Assembly (NCBI GenBank): GCA_016213945.1
Contig: JACQZF010000048.1
Span: forward strand, 97,854-152,384
DNA: 54,531 nucleotides
DNA from: Nitrospirota bacterium
GTDB taxonomy: Bacteria > Nitrospirota > Thermodesulfovibrionia > UBA6902
Direction of reading: 5' to 3'
Each line of letters opens with the position of its first letter. Position 1 is the first letter of the stretch. The notes beneath the pieces were generated by a model that ran no database searches, was not told where the DNA came from, and saw nothing but the letters and a program-made list of their open reading frames with translations. This document shows, piece after piece, positions 11,359 through 29,318 of the stretch. A program made the translations under genes and the position numbers.

Positions 11359-12966
<1,608 letters not shown>

Positions 12967-14837: not shown

Positions 14838-15575
14838 GTGACGGAGAACCAGTTAAAGCAAAAGACAGACACCGAGATTTCATTCCAGGAAGATTCTACC
14901 TGTCCGTACTTTGATGACGGAAGGACATCTTCAATAGAATATTTAATCCCCGCCAAGAAACGGATTCCGAATTTTCACGAACTTCTGTCAAAAGGGTACA
15001 GGCGTATCGGGAGCGTGTTTTACCGCAATGTCTGTAAGACATGTTCAGCCTGCATCCCCCTGCGTATTGAAGTAGAAAAATTTCAATTGAGCAGAAGCCA
15101 GAAAAGGACCATCGGCAAAAATAAAGACATCCGTGTGGAAGTCCAAAGAAGACCGTCCATCACCCCGGAGAAGGTCGTGCTTTACGATAAATACATAGCC
15201 GTGAAGCATAAGGATGACAAGAAAGAAGAAACTCGTAATCCCCTGCCTTTTCTTCTTGCAATGCATTCGGGTTACGACCATATAATCGAAATGGATTATT
15301 ACTGCGGGGGCAAGCTTATAGCCGTAGGGATCGTTGATGAGGCAGCGGATTCGCTTTCGTCCAATTACTTTTACTATGACACTGATCATCTTGACAGGAG
15401 GCCCGGCGTGTTCAGCATTATCCAGGAAATTTATCTCGCCAGGAAAATGGGAAAGAGATATCTCTATCTTGGATTTTATATAGAAGAAAATCCGAAGATG
15501 CGCTATAAAAAGCTTTTCCGTCCCAACCAGATCTACAGGGATGATCAATGGCAGGATTACCTAAAGGGACAATGA
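14838..15575 (+). CDS. bpt: Bpt/Ate-type aminoacyl-tRNA protein transferase
   Basis: Enzymes of this family attach leucine (Bpt) or arginine (Ate) from charged tRNA to the N-terminus of proteins, marking them for N-end-rule degradation. The 245-residue protein has the family N-terminal region CPYFDDGRTSSIEYLIP, the cysteine-rich NVCKTCSACIPLRI segment, and a GNAT-like second half with YYFYDTDHLDRRPG and YLYLGFYI. The start is GTG at 14838. The last 28 bases overlap the next gene, implying translational coupling. Whether leucine or arginine is the donated residue cannot be told by eye. The ClpAP/ClpS partners are not in this window. Confidence 0.85.
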   Translation: MTENQLKQKTDTEISFQEDSTCPYFDDGRTSSIEYLIPAKKRIPNFHELLSKGYRRIGSVFYRNVCKTCSACIPLRIEVEKFQLSRSQKRTIGKNKDIRVEVQRRPSITPEKVVLYDKYIAVKHKDDKKEETRNPLPFLLAMHSGYDHIIEMDYYCGGKLIAVGIVDEAADSLSSNYFYYDTDHLDRRPGVFSIIQEIYLARKMGKRYLYLGFYIEENPKMRYKKLFRPNQIYRDDQWQDYLKGQ

Positions 15576-17023
15576 AAAAACCGGGACCCCAGCCTTTCAA
15601 ACTCATTATCTTAGCCGCCCTGAAAAAAGAGGTCCCTAAAGACCTGCTTGCATCTCACGGCATCCCTGTTCACACCCTTGCGGCTCTTAAAGCAGGGGCG
15701 CTTGACCAGCGCAGCCCATCGGGAATTATGGTTGTGATAACCGGCGTGGGTCATAAAGCAAGCGAAGAGGCCGCGCGCTATGTGCGTGATAACCTGGCCC
15801 CCCTGTTCGTCCTTAACATAGGCACTTGCGGGGTAACAAATAAAAAATACCCGCTTGGCAAATGGATACTTCCTGAGCACGTCACAAATGAAGAAGGCGA
15901 CATGCTGAAATTAGACACGAGGCTGCCTGTTCCGCGCCCTGAAAAGATGATAAATGTTCGCTCGCTTATCAGCGTCAGGAAGTCTTCAATAAATGAGTTG
16001 CCCGAATCATGGAAAGGGCACGAGGCCATCGATATGGAATGTCATGCGCAGGCAAAGGTATTTCACGATGCAAAGATCAATTTCCACTGCCTGAAATTCA
16101 GCACTGACCATTCAGACAACAACACCTTCTCTAATTTCAACCGCAACTTTGAACTTTTTGCCGGAGAGGTAAAAAAGCTTTTCAACTTTATCGATGACGA
16201 TCACAAGGTGACCGTAATTGTTCCTGTCTACAACCGCCAGCATACAATAAGGCGCGCAATTGATTCCATTCTTGCTCAGTCCCTGCAGCCGGAAGAGATC
16301 ATCGTTGTTGACGACTGTTCCACTGACGGCACAAAGGAGACACTGAAAAGCTACGGCGATAAGCTGACCTGCGTTTTCCTGTCCGAAAACTCAGGGCCGT
16401 CAAGGGCAAGAAATGAAGGCGTTAAATGCGCAAAGACGGAGTGGATTGCTTTCCTGGATTCCGATGACTGCTGGGAAAAAGACAAACTGAAAAACCAGAT
16501 CGCGTACCTCACGAGATGTCCTTTTTATCAGATACTGCAATCGGAAGAAATGTGGATAAGAAACGGCGTGCGTGTTAATCCATGCAAACATCATAAGAAG
16601 CCGAAAGTCTGGATATGGGAGCAATCGCTTGAGAGATGCCTTGTCTCGCCATCAGGAGTTCTTGTGAAGAGGTCCCTGCTTGAGCGTTACGGATCATTCG
16701 ATGAAGAGTTTCCGGTTTGCGAGGATTATGACCTGTGGCTAAAGATATCAAGACATCATCCTGTCGGGCTTGAACCCGGTTTGTCAGTGATAAAATACGG
16801 CGGTCACAGCGACCAGCTTTCGCGGAAATATCCCGCAATGGATATGTTCAGGGTGAGGTCATTGATCAGATTATTAGAGAACGAACCGCATCCCGAATTC
16901 AGAGAAAAGATCATCGACGTCCTTGCAAGGAAGCTGAATATACTTATCAAAGGGTATGAGAAGAGGAAGAAGACAGAAGAGGCGGAGAAGTGCAGGGAGA
17001 TGCTCGCTTTCATGAGTAAATAA
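15548..17023 (+). CDS. Fusion of nucleoside phosphorylase-like domain and GT2 glycosyltransferase
   Basis: The 491-residue protein joins two enzyme folds. Residues about 14-205 look like a nucleoside phosphorylase or MTA/SAH nucleosidase: VITGVGHKASEEAA, LNIGTCG (89-95), IDMECHAQA with E164, and STDHSD with D190 at the place of the catalytic Asp. Residues 220-450 are a GT-A glycosyltransferase family 2 domain: KVTVIVPVYNR, EIIVVDDCSTDGT, and the metal-binding FLDSDD (D304-D307), followed by an acceptor-side region ending in WLKISRHHP. No membrane segment or signal peptide is seen, so it is cytoplasmic. Its start overlaps bpt by 28 bases. The pairing is unusual and the combined function is unknown; a nucleoside released by one half might be linked to sugar-nucleotide use by the other, but that is speculation. 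Confidence 0.75.
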   Translation: MAGLPKGTMKKPGPQPFKLIILAALKKEVPKDLLASHGIPVHTLAALKAGALDQRSPSGIMVVITGVGHKASEEAARYVRDNLAPLFVLNIGTCGVTNKKYPLGKWILPEHVTNEEGDMLKLDTRLPVPRPEKMINVRSLISVRKSSINELPESWKGHEAIDMECHAQAKVFHDAKINFHCLKFSTDHSDNNTFSNFNRNFELFAGEVKKLFNFIDDDHKVTVIVPVYNRQHTIRRAIDSILAQSLQPEEIIVVDDCSTDGTKETLKSYGDKLTCVFLSENSGPSRARNEGVKCAKTEWIAFLDSDDCWEKDKLKNQIAYLTRCPFYQILQSEEMWIRNGVRVNPCKHHKKPKVWIWEQSLERCLVSPSGVLVKRSLLERYGSFDEEFPVCEDYDLWLKISRHHPVGLEPGLSVIKYGGHSDQLSRKYPAMDMFRVRSLIRLLENEPHPEFREKIIDVLARKLNILIKGYEKRKKTEEAEKCREMLAFMSK

Positions 17024-17049: not shown

Positions 17050-18021
17050 ATGTTAGTCCAAAATATAAGTGTCAATGACGTCCTCGTTGAGCAAAGCCTT
17101 TTTTCGCTAAAAGGTTTTCTCTTTGAATCAAAAAGTCTTGAAACCTCTCTTGAAGATTCTTTCAAGCAGCTTGGCATACTGCATCCGGTTATTCTTTACA
17201 AAGATAAAGACGGAATGTTTCATCTGATTGATGGAAGGAAGCGCATTAATTTTGCAAGGCAGAACCAGGTTCAGACAGTCAGCGCAAACGTCCTGACGGA
17301 AGCAACACCGGTTACAGACATCATTACCTTGGTCCTCTGTGACAAGAGACTTGAGATCGAGCAAAGCATTATGAACAAAATCCGGTTCATCTGTTTCGCA
17401 CTTTATCTCAAAGCGCCTGAAGCATGGATACTGAATTTCCTCTGCATTCAATTCAGCTTTAAACCTTACAGTGAATTTCTGCGGGACTGCGAGCGCATGA
17501 ACGAGCTGCCTGTGGAATTAAAGTCCTTCTGCCATGAAAAAAAATACTCCCTGAAACAGATACTCAATTTAACTTCCTATCCGAAGGATATCCTTTTGCA
17601 GTTGATGGCGTGGAAGCCGATACTGCAATTGACCGCCTCCACGCTTGATGAGATCGCCTCAAATTTAAAAGATCATCTCAGCGCGCAAAACAAGACCATC
17701 AATGATTTTCTCGATGGGCCTGATGTTCAGGAAATGATCCGGTCTTCATTAGGCCCCCGTGACAGGACTGAAAGACTGCGTCAGTTTATTTACACAAAGC
17801 GGTTCCCTACCCTTTCCGAGACAAACGCAAGGATGCAGAAGACAGTTGAAGGCCTGAAGCTTCCGCAGGCTCTATCCATTAACTGGGACAGGACGCTGGA
17901 GAATAAAAATGTGGACATTGTTGTCCATGTGCAGGATTCTAAAAAGCTGACAGGGCTGTTAAGCACTTTGAACTCGGATGAGATGAAGAAGGCGGTGGAG
18001 GGAATACTGGATGAGCTTTGA
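17050..18021 (+). CDS. ParB/sulfiredoxin-fold domain protein paired with SPL-like gene
   Basis: The 323-residue protein has an N-terminal ParB-like nuclease/NTPase domain (about 20-100): a QLGILHPVILY strand-turn, then HLIDGRKRINFARQ matching the ParB box that binds CTP or ATP in related proteins. Residues about 105-260 are helical and could hold a helix-turn-helix region, but I see no clear chromosomal ParB (Spo0J) parS-binding signature. The ATG at 17050 has AGGAGATGG upstream, 26 bases after the fusion gene. It is probably not the segregation ParB. The next gene is a spore-photoproduct-lyase-like radical SAM protein, which suggests a shared DNA-related role, by inference. Confidence 0.65.
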   Translation: MLVQNISVNDVLVEQSLFSLKGFLFESKSLETSLEDSFKQLGILHPVILYKDKDGMFHLIDGRKRINFARQNQVQTVSANVLTEATPVTDIITLVLCDKRLEIEQSIMNKIRFICFALYLKAPEAWILNFLCIQFSFKPYSEFLRDCERMNELPVELKSFCHEKKYSLKQILNLTSYPKDILLQLMAWKPILQLTASTLDEIASNLKDHLSAQNKTINDFLDGPDVQEMIRSSLGPRDRTERLRQFIYTKRFPTLSETNARMQKTVEGLKLPQALSINWDRTLENKNVDIVVHVQDSKKLTGLLSTLNSDEMKKAVEGILDEL

Positions 18022-18028
18022 GCGGTAC

Positions 18029-18197
18029 AAGAAAACCGGAAGTCTCATAAACACAATGAATCGACGGGATATTGAAAGGGCAAGCCCTGTTTTGCAAGAA
18101 AAATCTTTTATGGCCCATTTCCATAAATTCATCTTGCAAGATGTAGTCTGATTTTTAAAGGTGTCGTCCTTGTGTTTATGAGCCATCCGGTTTTCTT
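18029..18197. repeat. 169-bp element with 28-bp terminal inverted repeats
   Basis: The arms at 18029-18056 and 18170-18197 are inverted copies matching at 26 of 28 positions, both built around AAGAAAACCGGA and CTCATAAACACAA. The 113-base interior is itself structured: CATCTTGCAAGATG (18130-18143) is a perfect 14-bp palindrome, and TATGG/CCATA (18109-18125) forms a small stem. There is no coding frame. It could be a MITE-like non-autonomous element, or a structured RNA between the ParB-like and SPL-like genes. I see no clear target-site duplication. Confidence 0.7.
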
Positions 18198-18231
18198 ATT
18201 GCAAGTTTTATTCGGACAACAGTGATTGAGA

Positions 18232-19245
18232 ATGATGAACTACAGAGACGGGAAAAGAGAAGTACAGTCGATTACAAAAAAAGGCGAGGCAATGGGCACG
18301 TGTGCTACGTTCAACAGAAAGTACCTCTGCTGTCATGTGTATGTATTGAAGTCCGTCCACAACTGCCCGTTTGAATGTTCATACTGCTTCCTTCAAAATT
18401 ATATGAACGACGGCGCGACAAAGATCGTGGACGATATTGACGCGTTGATGGAAGAGGTGAAAAGCAAAACCGCCAGTGGGCCGCAGAGGCTGTTCCGCAT
18501 CGGCACGTGGGAGCTTGGCGACAGCCTTGCGCTGGAAGGAGAGACAGGACAGGCCGCAAGGCTTATCCGGGAATTTTCCACTATGGGAAATGCCGTTCTT
18601 GAACTCAAGACGAAATCAAATAATGTTGATCCGATTCTAAATATCTCTCACAATGGAAGGACGGTTGTCTCGTGGTCTCTGAATACGGAGTACATCATAA
18701 ACACAGAAGAGCACAGGACCGCGCCTCTTGAAGAGCGGCTTCTTGCCATGCGAAAAGTTTCTAAGGCAGGCTATTTGATCGGCCTGCATTTCGATCCGAT
18801 GATCTTTCACGAGGGATGGGAAGAAGGATATGCAGGGCTTGTGGACCGGGTCTTTGATTCGGTATCACCTGAGCGGGTCGCGTGGATATCGATCGGCAGC
18901 CTCCGCTTCAACCCTGAGATGAAAAAGAAGATGGAAAACAACTACCCGGACAACCGCCTGACATGCGCGGAGATGGTGCTTGGTGATGACGCAAAGATGC
19001 GGTATGTAAAACCGCTGCGGGTAAAGATGTACAAACGCCTTTACAGCGCATTACACAAACATATTTCGGAAGACAATCTTGTATATCTTTGCATGGAACG
19101 GTGGGATGTCTGGGAAAAGGTCTTCGGCAATCGCCCTGATACGATCGAACACCTGGACTTCCTCTTCGCGCAATCGCTTTACAAAAGATTCGGACTGATG
19201 AATGGACCGCCGAAAATGGAGTTCTACGAAGAAATATCAAAGTGA
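18232..19245 (+). CDS. Spore photoproduct lyase-like radical SAM protein
   Basis: The protein (about 337 residues) has the SPL-type iron-sulphur motif C45-x3-C49-x2-C52 in NCPFECSYCFLQNYMND, which is more specific than the general radical SAM motif. Family features follow: FRIGTWELGDSLALE, ELKTKSNNVDPIL, VVSWSLNTEYI and GYLIGLHFDPM. SPL repairs thymine photoproducts in Bacillus spores; this kind of organism is not expected to sporulate, so the substrate may be another DNA or nucleotide lesion. The start may be the TTG at 18226 or ATG at 18232 or 18235; I took 18232. It follows the ParB-like gene after the 169-bp inverted-repeat element. Confidence 0.82.
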   Translation: MMNYRDGKREVQSITKKGEAMGTCATFNRKYLCCHVYVLKSVHNCPFECSYCFLQNYMNDGATKIVDDIDALMEEVKSKTASGPQRLFRIGTWELGDSLALEGETGQAARLIREFSTMGNAVLELKTKSNNVDPILNISHNGRTVVSWSLNTEYIINTEEHRTAPLEERLLAMRKVSKAGYLIGLHFDPMIFHEGWEEGYAGLVDRVFDSVSPERVAWISIGSLRFNPEMKKKMENNYPDNRLTCAEMVLGDDAKMRYVKPLRVKMYKRLYSALHKHISEDNLVYLCMERWDVWEKVFGNRPDTIEHLDFLFAQSLYKRFGLMNGPPKMEFYEEISK

Positions 19246-19258
19246 ATTCAGGCTAATT

Positions 19259-19672
19259 TTAATCTTCACGAGACGGGTGATAAGAACGTTTTTCTTTTTT
19301 CATGGATTGCAGGTGTTTCCCTGCAAGCATCTTTTCCTTTGCGCGTTTTGAGCGTTTGCGTTTCTGCCGCCTGATCTTTTCGATCCGCTGTTCTTCCTCG
19401 CTCTCCTTGCCTTTTATCAGGCGTTCCACTTTTTCAAAAAGCAGCACACGGGCATAATAGCGGTTCATTCCCTGAGTGCGCGCCTTCTGGCATTTGACCT
19501 CAACACCGGTTGGAATATGTTTAAGGTAAACACAGGTTGCGACCTTGTTGACATTCTGCCCGCCGTGCCCTCCTGAGCGGACAAACGATTCCTCAATGTC
19601 CTTTTCATGAATGCCGAGGCTGTCGAGCCTGGCCTTGAGAGACTTTTCTTTTTCCAGGCTTACAGGGAACAT
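19259..19672 (-). CDS. Release-factor-like protein with GGQ motif (ArfB/C12orf65-like)
   Basis: The 137-residue protein is a stand-alone RF-1 domain: [11 protein letters not shown] holds the GGQ motif (37-39) that triggers peptidyl-tRNA hydrolysis in the ribosomal centre, followed by [15 protein letters not shown]. It lacks the codon-recognition domains of RF1/RF2. The tail from about residue 90 is very basic, as in ribosome-rescue factors (ArfB/YaeJ) that place the tail in the empty mRNA channel. It may thus rescue stalled ribosomes. The ATG at 19672 has no Shine-Dalgarno sequence, but a TATAAT hexamer sits only five bases upstream, so the message may be leaderless. Its 3' end faces the SPL-like gene. 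Confidence 0.8.
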
Positions 19673-19783: not shown

Positions 19784-19858
<75 letters not shown>

Positions 19859-24663: not shown

Positions 24664-27600
24664 CTACGGGTGTATGCCAGCCGCCGCCGCTTTGGCCTGG
24701 TCCTCTGTAAGAGGTATGCCGATGTAGCTGCTCATTGAAGAGTCATGGCACTTGCCGCAGGCGTACTTAACGGAGATGGCGTTAGCCGCCACGTTCGTGA
24801 ATCCATTTGATCTGGTGATTGTGGTTGCAGCAGGATCGATCTTGAAGATGTGGGTCTTCACGTCTCCATTTCTGCCCCATGTTCCGTCAGGCGATTCGTT
24901 AGTCGCAGATTTCGTGGCCTCTGCCATATGGCAGTCAGAGCACTTGATGCCGCTTACATGATAACTGAGAGCTGATACTTTCAAATCAGCCCCTCCTCCT
25001 GCCGCATCAGGTGTGCCCGGTTGATGGCAGCTTTCGCAGGAGACTACAGCGCCCCTTTCCTCTGCCGTGAGGTTGTTGTCAGTTATTCCAAGAACAGACG
25101 CTATAGTGTCCGTCAGCTTGTGTGAGCGCTTGTGAGGATCATGGCATTGCACGCAGTTCAGATTTCTGTGCACACCGTCATTTAAACCGACAAGCTCGTT
25201 GTACTGCTCATGGTGGTTGATGTAGTCGCCGGTTATCTTTGCGCCGTTAGCCAGATAACTTGCGACATTTAAACCTGCATTCGGTCCGCCGCACTCGGCG
25301 TTGCCGACAGCGCCTGTCTTTGCAGTGTTTTCAGCCCTCATGTGACACACGCCGCAGACGTCCTTTGATGCATTCACCGTCATTGCATTAACAGAAGGAC
25401 TCTTCACATGATTCGCTCCTGTCCCGTGACAGGCCTCGCACTGAACGCCGCTGAGCGACCACTCGCTGTAGAAGCCGCCATGGTTTACAGGGTTCAGTCC
25501 TGTTGACGCCCATGGCTCGGTGCGGGCCCCGGAATCTACATAGCAGTCATATCCCGGTGTAAAAATCGCGCCATTTGTATTGTGGCATGTCGCGCACTCA
25601 TACTTCTTGCTTTGTCCCGAAGCGCTCCCGTAGGTAGACCAGTCAGCCCTTTTGCCCATCGGGTCGAGAGCCGGATCTGCTGCAAGCATATTGAACTGTG
25701 CTCCGACTCCGCCTGATAATGCCGCGCTGGACCAGACATAACCGGTCTTGTCGTCACCGGAGGTGTCTTTAATCCCCCACCTTGCCTTCCATCCATAACC
25801 GCCGATAACATAACTTACTGACGACCAGTCGAGCCTTCCGTCGGCGTTCAGATCAATCTGGAAATCCGGCACACTCACATCATCGTTTAAAGCCGCCAGG
25901 GTCGGCATGGTCATGCTTAGAAGAGCCGAAAGCGGGTCTGTATCCAAGGACGGGGTAGCGCCGTTGGTGATTCTTAATTTATACGGGTGTCCTGACTGGA
26001 CAAAGTCGTTGTACTTTGCTGTATGGCAGCCTGAGCAGGACTCAGAGCCGACAAAGCCGCCGTCAATTCCCGTTACGTTGTGATAACCTGTCGCTTCGGC
26101 TGATGCGTCTGCCTTTGTTGCAAATACAGTGGTTGTTCCGGCAAGACCGTCCTTGCCTCCTGCCTCAGCATGACATTTGCCGCACGCATACTCAAGAGAG
26201 AGATAATTGTATGCAACTGCAGGGCTTCCAGTGCCTGATGCAGTGTCCGGAGCTGTGGCAGAGGGGTTTATCTTAAAGATATGGGTCTTCGCATCACCCA
26301 TCTTTCCCCAGCTTCCTGTTGACGCATGGGTTGCAGATTTTGTCGCCTCTGCCATGTGACAGTCGGCACAGGTGACGCCTGCTGTTTTGTGAGCAAATAT
26401 CTTACCTGATGTTGCTGCATCATCAGCATTTCTCTGTGCCGGATGGCAGGCTGCGCAGGAAGTCACCGCACCTCTTTCCTCTGCAGAAAGGTGATTGTCC
26501 GTTATGCCGAGGGCTGCTGCGACTGCGTCTGTTACCTTATGTGAGCGTTTATGAGGGTCATGGCATGTTACGCATGTCAGGCTTGAATGCACGCCCGGTG
26601 CAGATACGGTTCCGACCATCTCGTTATACTGCTCATGATGTTTAATGTAGCCTCCGCCGACCAATGCGCCGCCTGTTCCGGTTCCGTAGCATTCCTGATC
26701 GGTAAGGATTCTGGTATGGCATTTGCCGCAGGTCTCAAGCGATGTATTTTTAGTAATGTTTAATACTGACGGAGCATTCACATGGCTCTCGCCGGGGCCG
26801 TGGCAGGCCTCGCACTGTACTCCGTCAAAAGTCCACTCACTGTAATACCCGCCGTGATTGGTTTGATCCAGGAATGGATTTGAAGCCCACGGCTCTGTAC
26901 GCCCGCCAGGCGCCTCGTAACAGGATTGGGCCGGGTCTATGTTTTTGCCGTTAGTGTTATGGCAAACCGCGCAATTGTATTTCTTTGATTGTCCGGTTGT
27001 TGAGCCGTAACTGGACCAATCCGCCCTTCTGCCATAAGGGTCAAGCGTTGAATCCGCAGCCATCATGTTGAACTGGGCAGCCGAAGTGCTCGACCAGACG
27101 TATCCGGTCTTCTGTAACGTGCCCGTATCCAATGTGTTATCCTTTATGCCCCAGCGCGCCTTCCAGCCAAAACCGCCGATGACGTAATTCGCTGACGACC
27201 AATCAAGATGTCCTGTCCCGTCATCCGCCGGTGTAACATTGGCGTCAGTGTTCAAAGCCGCAAGCAAAGGCATATATGTTGAAAGTATCGCTGAAAGCGG
27301 ATCTGCTTCCGGCGAGGGTATTGCGCCGCCTGTCGTCCTGTACTTGTATGGATGTCCTGACCTGTCGAAGTCTGCTTTCTGTGTTGTGTGGCATGAACCG
27401 CAGACTGACGAGCCTACATAGCCGTTGTCGATTGCCGGTGGCGCAAATTTAAATCCCTCGGAATGCACGTGGCAGTCTGTACATTTTTGCCCGTCGTAAT
27501 GTCCGACATAGTTACTGCCTGCATCCAAATCTCCGGGGGCTGAGCCGTCATTCCTGTGATGGTTTGTCTGTGTATGGCATGTCTCACAGATATTTTGATT

Positions 27601-29121
27601 ATTAGGTACTCCATCTGCAAATGAACCTGCTCCGGAAGCAGCGGTGAAAAGAATGTAGTCTCTTGTGCTTGTTCCGGTGACAGGATTGTCATAGCAGAGG
27701 TATTCCTTGATATACTTACCGTAAGTTGCGCCGTATGCAAGGTCCTGCTCCTGCTGATGCGGGTTATGGCAGGTTAAACAGTCCATTGTCCAGCCGCCGT
27801 ATTTTGTCCCGGCTACGGACGATGAGTGCATTTTTACATTCTTTGCCGTGCCGAATCCATATGGAGGATTTGCCGGATACTGCGCCTTCAAAACTCCGTT
27901 TAAAGGATCGGATGTGTCCGCAGGGTCAGAATGGCATCTCTGACAGGACCTTCTCTGGTCAATGACGCCTGAATCATCAAAGTGACACCAGTTGCAGGAT
28001 GTTTTATTAGTTGACCCGTCGCCATTCAAGAGGTTAAACACATGCACGCCGTCATTGGGGTTTGTCTTTGTAGTGCACGAAGGCTGAGCGCAATCAGCGT
28101 CTGTGGCATCTACCCTGCTGTCGCAGTCATTGTCAATGCCGTCGCTGCAGGTCGGGTCGCCGTAGCTTCCTTCTTTGTTTCCCGGGAAGCGATTGGCGTT
28201 ATTGTCATCGCAGTCGCCTGCGCACCATGCAACTCCGTCGTGGTCTTTATCTTCGTCTGTAGAGAAATCTTTTCTGCCGTCGCAGTCGCTGTCTTTGCCG
28301 TCGCATATGCGCTGCGCGCCGGGATGAACATTTGCATCATTGTCGTCACAGTCAACAGCGCCGCATCCTATGCCGCCTACAAAGTAATTATCTCCGTCAG
28401 CGTCTACGCAATACGCAGGACATCCTGTTGCATTTGGGTCCTGTATATCGGTGATGCCGTCACAGTCATTGTCTTTGCCGTCTGCACAGAGTTCAGCCGC
28501 TCCAAGATAAACTGTGTTGTCATTGTCGTTACAGTCTGTGCCGCCACAGGCCTGTAATGTCTGGCCATCTCCATCTGCATCCGGGCATATACAGGCGGCC
28601 TCATCAATCTGCCCGTTACAGTTGTTGTCTTTCGTGTCGCTGCAGTATTCCTGGACTCCGGGATTGACGCTGAAATCATTGTCATTACAGTCAGCAGGCG
28701 AACTGCAGATACGGTAGCCGTCCTGGTCCAGGTCCTTTTCCGCGGCCGGCACTCCTCCTACGCAGTCGTTATCTATGCCGTCGCATATTTCGGGATTGCC
28801 GGGGAATCTGTTCGGGTTGTTGTCGTCACAGTCACCCGCGCACCACATGACACCGTCATGATCTTTGTCCTCGTCAGTGCTGAAATCCTTTCTTCCGTCA
28901 CAGTTGTTGTCTTTGCCGTCGCATATTTTGGGTGCGCCGGGGTAGACTTTGTTGTCGTTGTCATTACAGTCTGTTGTCTTTCCCTTCGGACATGAAATGT
29001 CTCCGGGGCTGCCGTAGCCGTCCCCATCCAGGTCTGTACATGCCGCGTGAACCGGAACAAATGACAGGGCAAGCACGAGTACAGAAAACAGGATGATAAA
29101 GATTGATCGATACTTTAACAT
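24664..29121 (-). CDS. Secreted MopE-like repeat and 21-haem c-type cytochrome
   Basis: The 1485-residue protein starts MLKYRSIFIILFSV, a clear Sec signal peptide ending near FVPVHA, at an ATG preceded by GGAGGAGG; an in-frame extension to 29226 has no such support. Residues about 23-350 hold six acidic, cysteine-rich MopE-like repeats (such as CDGKDNNCDG with DLDGDGYG), likely calcium- or metal-binding. From residue 376 there are 21 CxxCH motifs: five, then eight (574 to about 1020), then eight (1029-1459). The last two blocks are tandem copies sharing HPYKxR, VIGGxGWKARWGIKD, KRADWS, CEACHG and HHEQYNE landmarks. No haem motif is broken. The CEACHGPG-type units recall cytochrome c554-like folds. 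It is probably periplasmic or outside the cell in electron transfer; the redox partner is unknown. A two-component pair lies upstream on the same strand. Confidence 0.9.
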   Translation of the reverse strand: MLKYRSIFIILFSVLVLALSFVPVHAACTDLDGDGYGSPGDISCPKGKTTDCNDNDNKVYPGAPKICDGKDNNCDGRKDFSTDEDKDHDGVMWCAGDCDDNNPNRFPGNPEICDGIDNDCVGGVPAAEKDLDQDGYRICSSPADCNDNDFSVNPGVQEYCSDTKDNNCNGQIDEAACICPDADGDGQTLQACGGTDCNDNDNTVYLGAAELCADGKDNDCDGITDIQDPNATGCPAYCVDADGDNYFVGGIGCGAVDCDDNDANVHPGAQRICDGKDSDCDGRKDFSTDEDKDHDGVAWCAGDCDDNNANRFPGNKEGSYGDPTCSDGIDNDCDSRVDATDADCAQPSCTTKTNPNDGVHVFNLLNGDGSTNKTSCNWCHFDDSGVIDQRRSCQRCHSDPADTSDPLNGVLKAQYPANPPYGFGTAKNVKMHSSSVAGTKYGGWTMDCLTCHNPHQQEQDLAYGATYGKYIKEYLCYDNPVTGTSTRDYILFTAASGAGSFADGVPNNQNICETCHTQTNHHRNDGSAPGDLDAGSNYVGHYDGQKCTDCHVHSEGFKFAPPAIDNGYVGSSVCGSCHTTQKADFDRSGHPYKYRTTGGAIPSPEADPLSAILSTYMPLLAALNTDANVTPADDGTGHLDWSSANYVIGGFGWKARWGIKDNTLDTGTLQKTGYVWSSTSAAQFNMMAADSTLDPYGRRADWSSYGSTTGQSKKYNCAVCHNTNGKNIDPAQSCYEAPGGRTEPWASNPFLDQTNHGGYYSEWTFDGVQCEACHGPGESHVNAPSVLNITKNTSLETCGKCHTRILTDQECYGTGTGGALVGGGYIKHHEQYNEMVGTVSAPGVHSSLTCVTCHDPHKRSHKVTDAVAAALGITDNHLSAEERGAVTSCAACHPAQRNADDAATSGKIFAHKTAGVTCADCHMAEATKSATHASTGSWGKMGDAKTHIFKINPSATAPDTASGTGSPAVAYNYLSLEYACGKCHAEAGGKDGLAGTTTVFATKADASAEATGYHNVTGIDGGFVGSESCSGCHTAKYNDFVQSGHPYKLRITNGATPSLDTDPLSALLSMTMPTLAALNDDVSVPDFQIDLNADGRLDWSSVSYVIGGYGWKARWGIKDTSGDDKTGYVWSSAALSGGVGAQFNMLAADPALDPMGKRADWSTYGSASGQSKKYECATCHNTNGAIFTPGYDCYVDSGARTEPWASTGLNPVNHGGFYSEWSLSGVQCEACHGTGANHVKSPSVNAMTVNASKDVCGVCHMRAENTAKTGAVGNAECGGPNAGLNVASYLANGAKITGDYINHHEQYNELVGLNDGVHRNLNCVQCHDPHKRSHKLTDTIASVLGITDNNLTAEERGAVVSCESCHQPGTPDAAGGGADLKVSALSYHVSGIKCSDCHMAEATKSATNESPDGTWGRNGDVKTHIFKIDPAATTITRSNGFTNVAANAISVKYACGKCHDSSMSSYIGIPLTEDQAKAAAAGIHP

Positions 29122-29184
29122 GGTCCCTCCTCCTTCTATTAAACCTTTAATTGGTTTTATTCCAACGTGTTTGATTTGTACGCT

Positions 29185-29210
29185 GGTACTTATATTTAAT
29201 TTAAAGTACC
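29185..29210 (-). promoter_or_regulatory. Inverted repeat upstream of the multihaem cytochrome gene, possible operator
   Basis: GGTACTT (29185-29191) and AAGTACC (29204-29210) are a perfect 7-bp inverted repeat around an AT-only spacer, 64-89 bases before the cytochrome ATG. A second, weaker one, TGTGAA/TTCACA, lies at about 29257-29274. Either could be the binding site of the neighbouring response regulator; that link is inference. Confidence 0.4.
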
Positions 29211-29318
29211 GCAGGGAAGGATTCAATAGAAATCTTACTTACTGATTCGGGTGTTTTGTGAAGAAAAATTCACAGATCGAGGGGGAATCGACTTAAAAAA
29301 CAAGGTTGAATTGCCGGA

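Follow-up and report, generated by a model that had tools for sequence, protein, structure and literature searches.

A ParB-like protein and a spore photoproduct lyase-like radical SAM protein co-occur with a nucleosidase domain in Nitrospirota

Introduction

The ParB, Noc and KorB proteins share an N-terminal ParB/Srx fold and a helical domain of helix-turn-helix (HTH) type; GERR is the motif of the CTP site in ParB and Noc, and ENxxR is the motif that follows the GERR helix. Two described pathways, that of the hopanoids (HpnH/HpnG) and the futalosine route to menaquinone (MqnE/MqnB), follow the same logic, in which a substrate is adenosylated and then depurinated. Spore photoproduct lyase (SPL), a radical S-adenosylmethionine (SAM) enzyme with a Cys/Tyr relay, is represented by SplB (PF20903/TIGR04070; PDB 4fhc-4fhg, 4k9r and 4rh0), and PMC3742179 reports that SAM regeneration is lost in the C141A and Y99F forms of the B. 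subtilis enzyme. In the hopanoid case, the radical SAM enzyme is followed by a putative phosphorylase of the PNP family that removes adenine, and the glycosyltransferase HpnI acts later, on one branch, according to PMC12583986. The locus compared with these systems lies in a window of 54,531 nucleotides (the whole stretch of DNA that was analysed, positions 97854-152384 of its contig) from a genome of the Thermodesulfovibrionia (Nitrospirota), and it contains, on the forward strand, a gene for a ParB-like protein (17050-18021, 323 amino acids) followed by a gene for an SPL-like radical SAM protein (18232-19245, 336-337 amino acids).

Both open reading frames (ORFs) were confirmed at these positions, as were the two assignments made for them by an original prediction, which had proposed from the DNA letters that the genes could form a unit acting in DNA repair or modification. 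The pairing of the ParB-like and SPL-like proteins is real, stronger than that first guess, and far beyond chance. It extends to the nucleosidase half of an upstream gene (NPGT, 15548-17023), which encodes a nucleosidase/phosphorylase-glycosyltransferase fusion. The explanation that we favour, tentatively and at somewhat less than even confidence, is that a domain resembling 5'-methylthioadenosine (MTA) nucleosidase, usually fused to a family 2 glycosyltransferase (GT2), forms a module with the ParB-like and SPL-like proteins, and that this module would carry out an obligate, SAM-consuming radical SAM pathway and not ordinary UV repair.

Co-occurrence across Nitrospirota

The survey comprised 322 distinct Nitrospirota genomes, made up of 284 genomes of the phylum outside the family of the window genome (f1), 37 genomes of that family (G000-G036, G000 being the window genome, of 3.5 Mb in 101 contigs) and G332; it was confined to this phylum, and absence from other phyla is not claimed. 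Eleven f1 members belong to the 295-genome phylum sample, and in f1 outside those 11 the ParB-like family was searched with one sequence instead of a profile. Cut-offs were set after the gaps in score had been seen, which ran from 219.7 to 42.6 bits for the ParB-like family and from 436 bits (or a split pair of 311.5 + 243.4 in G289) to 201 for the SPL-like family; more distant SPL-like hits under the gap (12 genomes, 4 of them from family f35) were not counted as members. Many of the genomes are metagenome bins, and contig ends or frame breaks interrupt several copies (for example in G006, G012, G024, G030 and G289). A single contig scan yielded 19 loci; positives that it overlooked, such as G203 and G308, came to light with the profiles. 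Relatives from protein searches, where they carried names, were mostly Nitrospirae, Nitrospiraceae or Thermodesulfovibrionia.

Both families are present in 33 of the 322 genomes, and no genome has one of them alone, except that G027 holds an SPL-like fragment of 36 amino acids at a contig end. Within the phylum sample, the ParB-like family was found in 14 of 295 genomes (G000, G003, G005, G008, G010, G015, G159, G203, G205, G207, G289, G293, G308 and G325), and the SPL-like subfamily and the nucleosidase half were found in the identical 14. Independent draws would produce identical 14-genome sets with a chance of about 3e-24, a figure that overstates the case since related genomes are not independent. 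The same agreement holds within f1, where the ParB-like protein, the SPL-like protein and the nucleosidase half occur in the same 24 of 37 genomes, while 12 have neither gene of the pair and G027 has the fragment only. Positive and negative genomes stand side by side within genera g5, g7 and g9, family f16 contributes 5 positives and 3 negatives to the sample, and G332 (from L052) has both genes. Checked in this way across genomes, the proposal that the two genes are a conserved unit was upheld.

In 21 of the 33 genomes, NPGT or its nucleosidase half is found at most 1.6 kb upstream of the ParB-like gene. The two genes of the pair stand side by side in 23 of the 33, and in G020 and G035 they face contig breaks in a way that fits adjacency. 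In the remaining eight (G001, G002, G003, G159, G205, G207, G308 and G332), they occupy different contigs, with enough flanking sequence for adjacency to have been seen, and in G003, G159, G205 and G207 the ParB-like, SPL-like and nucleosidase genes all lie on different contigs and are still retained. Frequent separation in relatives, which had been named beforehand as evidence against a link, is therefore found in the literal sense, at a rate of 8 in 33 that contig ends do not explain; however, because no genome keeps one gene only, this separation does not refute the linkage.

A phage or plasmid origin was rejected, since no ParB-like relative was found on plasmids or viral contigs. The plasmid search returned 17 records with SPL hits, all below 60% identity, the viral contigs held two distant SPL-like loci at 29% identity, and PHROGs gave weak ParB-like hits only. 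Anti-phage defence was considered and rejected; PADLOC returned one marginal match, PD-T7-1 to the C-terminus of the ParB-like protein (E 0.0049), and none for the other two proteins.

The SPL-like radical SAM protein

The SPL-like protein scores 103 bits against the Pfam SPL family (cut-off 27), and its predicted structure (pLDDT 86.8) matches SPL of G. thermodenitrificans with Z of about 30 over 279 residues at 2.0 A. The model is SPL-like throughout residues 2-290 and shows no sign of an added peptide-binding domain. Translation likely starts at ATG 18232 or 18235 rather than at the listed TTG 18226, from which residue numbers are counted here. In an alignment of 34 distinct ORFs, including the outlier L067 (33 rows without it), the radical SAM motif CxxxCxxC is intact, with C47, C51 and C54 in all of the rows that have residues there (33 of 34), and further conserved cysteines are C26, C35, C36 and C289. 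SplB has in common with this family the fold, the CxxxCxxC motif, a Tyr before the third cluster Cys, a 'KTK' lysine and an Asp after the donor site, the last three of which have roles in SPL.

The differences from SPL lie in overall identity (22%), in gene partners and in the two residues of the relay. The hydrogen-donor Cys (C141 in B. subtilis, C140 in G. thermodenitrificans) corresponds to E96, at which the 34 ORFs have E in 31 (L067 among them), Q in 1, G in 1 and a gap in 1; an ungapped alignment to SPL also places E96 at this site. The relay Tyr (Y99 and Y98, respectively) corresponds to F55, and the column reads F in 32 of 34, I in L067 and a gap in 1; the solved Y98F mutant of SPL (4k9r) has F at the same aligned place. 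Against the TIGR04070 equivalog, the protein reaches 120 bits versus a cut-off of 400.

Another SPL-like subfamily adjoins a three-Cys-motif partner in L069 (890-2895; TIGR04474, 218.5 versus a 53-bit cut-off), and L070 contains a similar-looking pair (356-2334).

The ParB-like protein

The ParB-like protein has a divergent ParB fold, consisting of a ParB/Srx N-terminal domain (residues ~1-104), a helical middle of the ParB HTH type (~105-215) and a C-terminal domain of its own, in which W279-D280 and L283-E284 are conserved; H162 is likewise conserved in the family. It scores 18.2 bits against Pfam ParB_N, under the 26.3-bit cut-off, and a 25-row profile of the family matched solved ParB/Noc chains at 3.4e-7 (4umk) to 4e-5. 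The predicted structure (pLDDT 88.9) found its best match in KorB (Z 10.7, 6.7 A, 194 residues aligned), followed by Noc (Z 10.6, 6.4 A, 193 aligned) and ParB (Z 9.7, 6.6 A, 182 aligned), the matches covering residues ~1-215. The helical middle aligns with DNA-binding regions of ParB/SopB (4umk, Z 6.0; 3mky, Z 5.3), while matches limited to the C-terminal domain stayed under Z 4 and were not used. The model also matched sulfiredoxin (Z 9.6, 86 aligned) and free serine kinase (Z 8.6, 76 aligned); since the ParB/Srx fold includes these ATP- or ADP-using enzymes, the ParB-like protein could use a nucleotide in some other manner.

GERR is absent from the family and is replaced by D61-G62-x-K64-R65 ('DGxKR'), with D61 and G62 in all of the rows that have residues there (33 of 34), position 63 variable and K64 in 29 of 34. 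ENxxR is absent as well, as positions 99-102 vary and the stretch aligned to ENLQRE of Noc reads otherwise. Compared with ParB, Noc and KorB (PDB 8qa9, 7nfu and 6t1f), the N-terminal fold and the helical HTH-type domain are thus shared, whereas the Pfam score under the cut-off, the 'DGxKR' stretch and the C-terminal domain set the family apart. Most genomes of the phylum sample, G000 included, also have generic ParB hits with much lower scores, from which this family is distinct.

The nucleosidase-glycosyltransferase fusion

The two halves of NPGT were scored separately by coordinates. The first (15548-16198, forward strand) is a PNP_UDP_1 nucleosidase/phosphorylase domain that resembles nucleosidases of MTA and S-adenosylhomocysteine (SAH), and the second (16199-17023, forward strand) is a GT2 domain (PF00535, 121 bits). 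The nucleosidase half reaches 30.4 bits against PF01048, above the cut-off, and matches HpnG (TIGR03468) weakly at 2.3e-7; an 8-row profile matched solved MTA/SAH nucleosidases, its closest solved relatives, at 1.6e-5. Similarity to MtnN/Pfs is weak, but the Glu/Asp columns are common to both, the invariant catalytic-type Glu (E164, in DME) and Asp (D187) aligning with the ME and SD of the MTA/SAH nucleosidases.

All 33 genomes with the ParB-like/SPL-like pair have the nucleosidase half, so the earlier suggestion that the phosphorylase-glycosyltransferase fusion belongs with the pair proved correct. NPGT is found in the same 14 of 295 genomes, as the nucleosidase half only in G005 and in two pieces in G003 and G015; the nucleosidase half is also present in the other 18 positive f1 genomes (18/18) and in G332. 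Because the GT2 half is missing from 4 of the 24 positive f1 genomes (G005, G007, G009 and G033), the nucleosidase is the constant part and GT2 an accessory. A separate MTA/SAH nucleosidase scores above the cut-off in 7 of the 14 module genomes, G000 included, which rules out for these seven that the nucleosidase half is the only MTA nucleosidase of the genome.

The bpt gene (14838-15575, forward strand), which had also been put forward as belonging to the unit, turned up in 13 of the 295 genomes of the phylum sample, only 4 of which are among the 14 with the pair, and was ruled out as a fourth member. In G000, G003 and G007, bpt immediately precedes NPGT or its nucleosidase half, and most module genomes of the phylum sample are without it.

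A second arrangement in family f35

Four genomes of family f35 (G191, G209, G223 and G292) encode a more distant SPL-like protein together with a GT2 and an unfused nucleosidase-like protein (4/4 of those positive for the SPL-like protein); in the fifth, G328, the SPL-like and nucleosidase-like proteins are both absent. The f35 GT2 is the closest to that of NPGT, with 252-322 bits versus at most 163.5 for other genomes outside the 14, and the G292 copy is 39% identical over 258 amino acids. The G292 operon (L113, 2221-5724) runs in the order GT2, nucleosidase-like, SPL-like and SDR, with just one stop codon between one open frame and the next. Against a futalosine hydrolase model, the f35 nucleosidase-like protein gave E 0.0018. 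The ParB-like family considered here is absent from f35, in which low-scoring ParB hits only were found (best 1.6e-6).

The gap between the pair and the surroundings of the locus

The ParB-like and SPL-like genes of most relatives share an overlap or almost meet. Here they are some 200 bases apart, and the gap contains an inverted repeat (18029-18197, not assigned to a strand) with 31-nt arms that are 90% complementary and 107 nt apart, and the stretch folds strongly (z -4.7). This gap is an insertion peculiar to G000: its nearest relative, G004, has a different insert, and other inserts stand at the same site in the near relatives G004, G006 and G008. A dispersed element was considered and rejected, as the G000 genome has no second copy of the repeat. 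An ORF of about 46 codons (18013-18153), noted by eye, lies across the end of the ParB-like gene and extends into the inverted repeat; it is probably due to chance.

Downstream of the SPL-like gene, on the opposite strand (19259-19672), lies a gene for a stand-alone RF-1-domain protein resembling peptide release factors, and an Rfam scan gave a single match, a tRNA at 19784-19855. By eye, a GuaA-like ORF (11359-12966) contains an in-frame stretch that includes SPVT and resembles a translated repeat element, and a very long ORF on the reverse strand (24664-29226) has many CxxCH motifs, like a multiheme cytochrome, together with repeated acidic segments.

Discussion

In the SAM-consuming pathway that we favour, the SPL-like enzyme, having no Cys/Tyr relay, would neither return hydrogen nor recycle SAM, so that SAM would be consumed and 5'-deoxyadenosine or a 5'-deoxyadenosyl adduct would be made. 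The nucleosidase domain would then strip adenine, as proposed for HpnG after HpnH, GT2 may glycosylate the product where it is present, and the ParB-like protein would act as a dedicated partner, most probably an adaptor that binds a nucleotide or the substrate. The constant presence of the nucleosidase beside an SPL-like enzyme that has lost the relay suggests that the 5'-deoxyadenosine or the adduct arises at each turnover and is then processed, and the substrate is probably not spore photoproduct. This explanation is supported by the coincidence of the three-family sets in spite of the separate contigs in 8 of 33 genomes, and further by the replaced SPL relay, the kinship of the nucleosidase half with MTA/SAH nucleosidases, the link between a similar GT2, a nucleosidase-like and an SPL-like protein in f35, and the HpnH/HpnG precedent.

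The module pairs a radical SAM enzyme with a PNP-family protein by the same logic as HpnH/HpnG, but its radical SAM partner is SPL-like, unlike HpnH, a radical SAM adenosylhopane synthase. HpnH scores above the cut-off in 137 of 295 phylum genomes and in none of the 14 module genomes, which rules out a hopanoid pathway with NPGT acting as HpnG. A more specific and bolder version, which we regard as unlikely though worth stating, is that the SPL-fold enzyme has abandoned the reversal of DNA lesions and the recycling of SAM and has been turned to 5'-deoxyadenosyl transfer to an acceptor, that NPGT depurinates and glycosylates the product, and that the ParB-fold protein is the obligate partner in a further 'adenosylate, then depurinate' pathway. 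A literature search with thin coverage of subscription journals found nothing on a pairing of ParB with an SPL-like protein or on an SPL-like and nucleosidase module.

Several observations weigh against the favoured explanation. The nucleosidase could simply clear 5'-deoxyadenosine, a by-product of radical SAM enzymes that needs scavenging and for which PMC6302742 implicates a nucleosidase. The ParB-like protein is without a counterpart in the analogy with HpnH/HpnG. Of the 13 f1 genomes without the pair, 3 have NPGT (G023, G025 and G031, which are 80, 78 and 85% complete). The f35 nucleosidase-like protein has no Pfam match and is related weakly to the window nucleosidase (hhalign probability 58%, E 1e-4). 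Finally, SplB-like genes of other lineages also encode SPL-like radical SAM proteins and recur beside a particular partner; according to PMC3765255 and PMC4929162, these partners are repair genes, namely SOS-associated SRAP/ImuB-C genes in bacteria and NreB in archaea. The partners in the present module, a ParB-fold protein and a nucleosidase, are different; the loci that were read showed no recognisable SRAP, ImuB-C or Nre gene, although no systematic search for these genes was made.

That gene context also speaks for DNA repair or modification, the role originally predicted, in which the ParB-like protein would bind or scan DNA and bring the SPL-like enzyme to some base, or to a lesion that is not spore photoproduct, while the nucleosidase would do no more than clear 5'-deoxyadenosine. 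Both folds have DNA-acting members, and the middle of the ParB-like protein, with an isoelectric point (pI) of 8.7, is the part that aligns with the DNA-binding regions of ParB/SopB; neither whole protein is basic, however (pI 6.6 for the ParB-like and ~6.8 for the SPL-like protein). The SPL Cys and Tyr are replaced, GERR is lost, and the constant companion is a nucleosidase in a conserved neighbourhood without a visible repair gene; in f35, GT2 keeps company with nucleosidase-like and SPL-like proteins and this ParB family is absent. The predicted role was not demonstrated; DNA repair stays a live alternative but is the less likely reading of the pair, to which we would give about one chance in several.

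Protein modification, in which the SPL-like enzyme would modify or activate the ParB-like protein as its substrate or activated product, is rather improbable. An enzyme that acts on one particular protein should co-occur strictly with it even where the genes are unlinked, as is seen here, and the conserved H162, W279-D280 and L283-E284 of the ParB-like family could be seen in this light; yet the SPL-like module of f35 does without this ParB, and the SPL-like model lacks the added peptide-binding domain. A shade less probable again is a purely regulatory role, in which the ParB-like protein, similar to KorB, would do no more than control transcription of the nucleosidase and SPL-like genes in response to a nucleotide. 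KorB and Noc are indeed its best structural matches, and in many genomes its gene is flanked by those of the two enzymes, but it is kept even where the three genes lie on different contigs, the GERR-type motif is lost, and f35 manages without it. Vertical inheritance of chance neighbours in one clade, without a common function, is very improbable: although all 33 positives belong to related Nitrospirota lineages and 23 keep the pair adjacent, presence is patchy within families with patterns that agree (24 positive and 13 negative in f1, 5 and 3 in f16), unlinked copies are co-retained, and the neighbouring bpt has a different pattern.

Returning to the SAM-consuming module, its significance lies first in the SPL-like proteins that lack the SPL cysteine, which are found in non-spore-formers and annotated, for example, as spore photoproduct lyase family protein; since one such subfamily is strictly accompanied by a nucleosidase and a ParB-fold protein, there is a concrete handle on its role. 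Should the ParB-like protein prove to be a partner that binds the substrate, the ParB fold would gain a new use, and if the deoxyadenosyl-transfer version is true, a further pathway of this kind would stand beside those of the hopanoids and of futalosine menaquinone.

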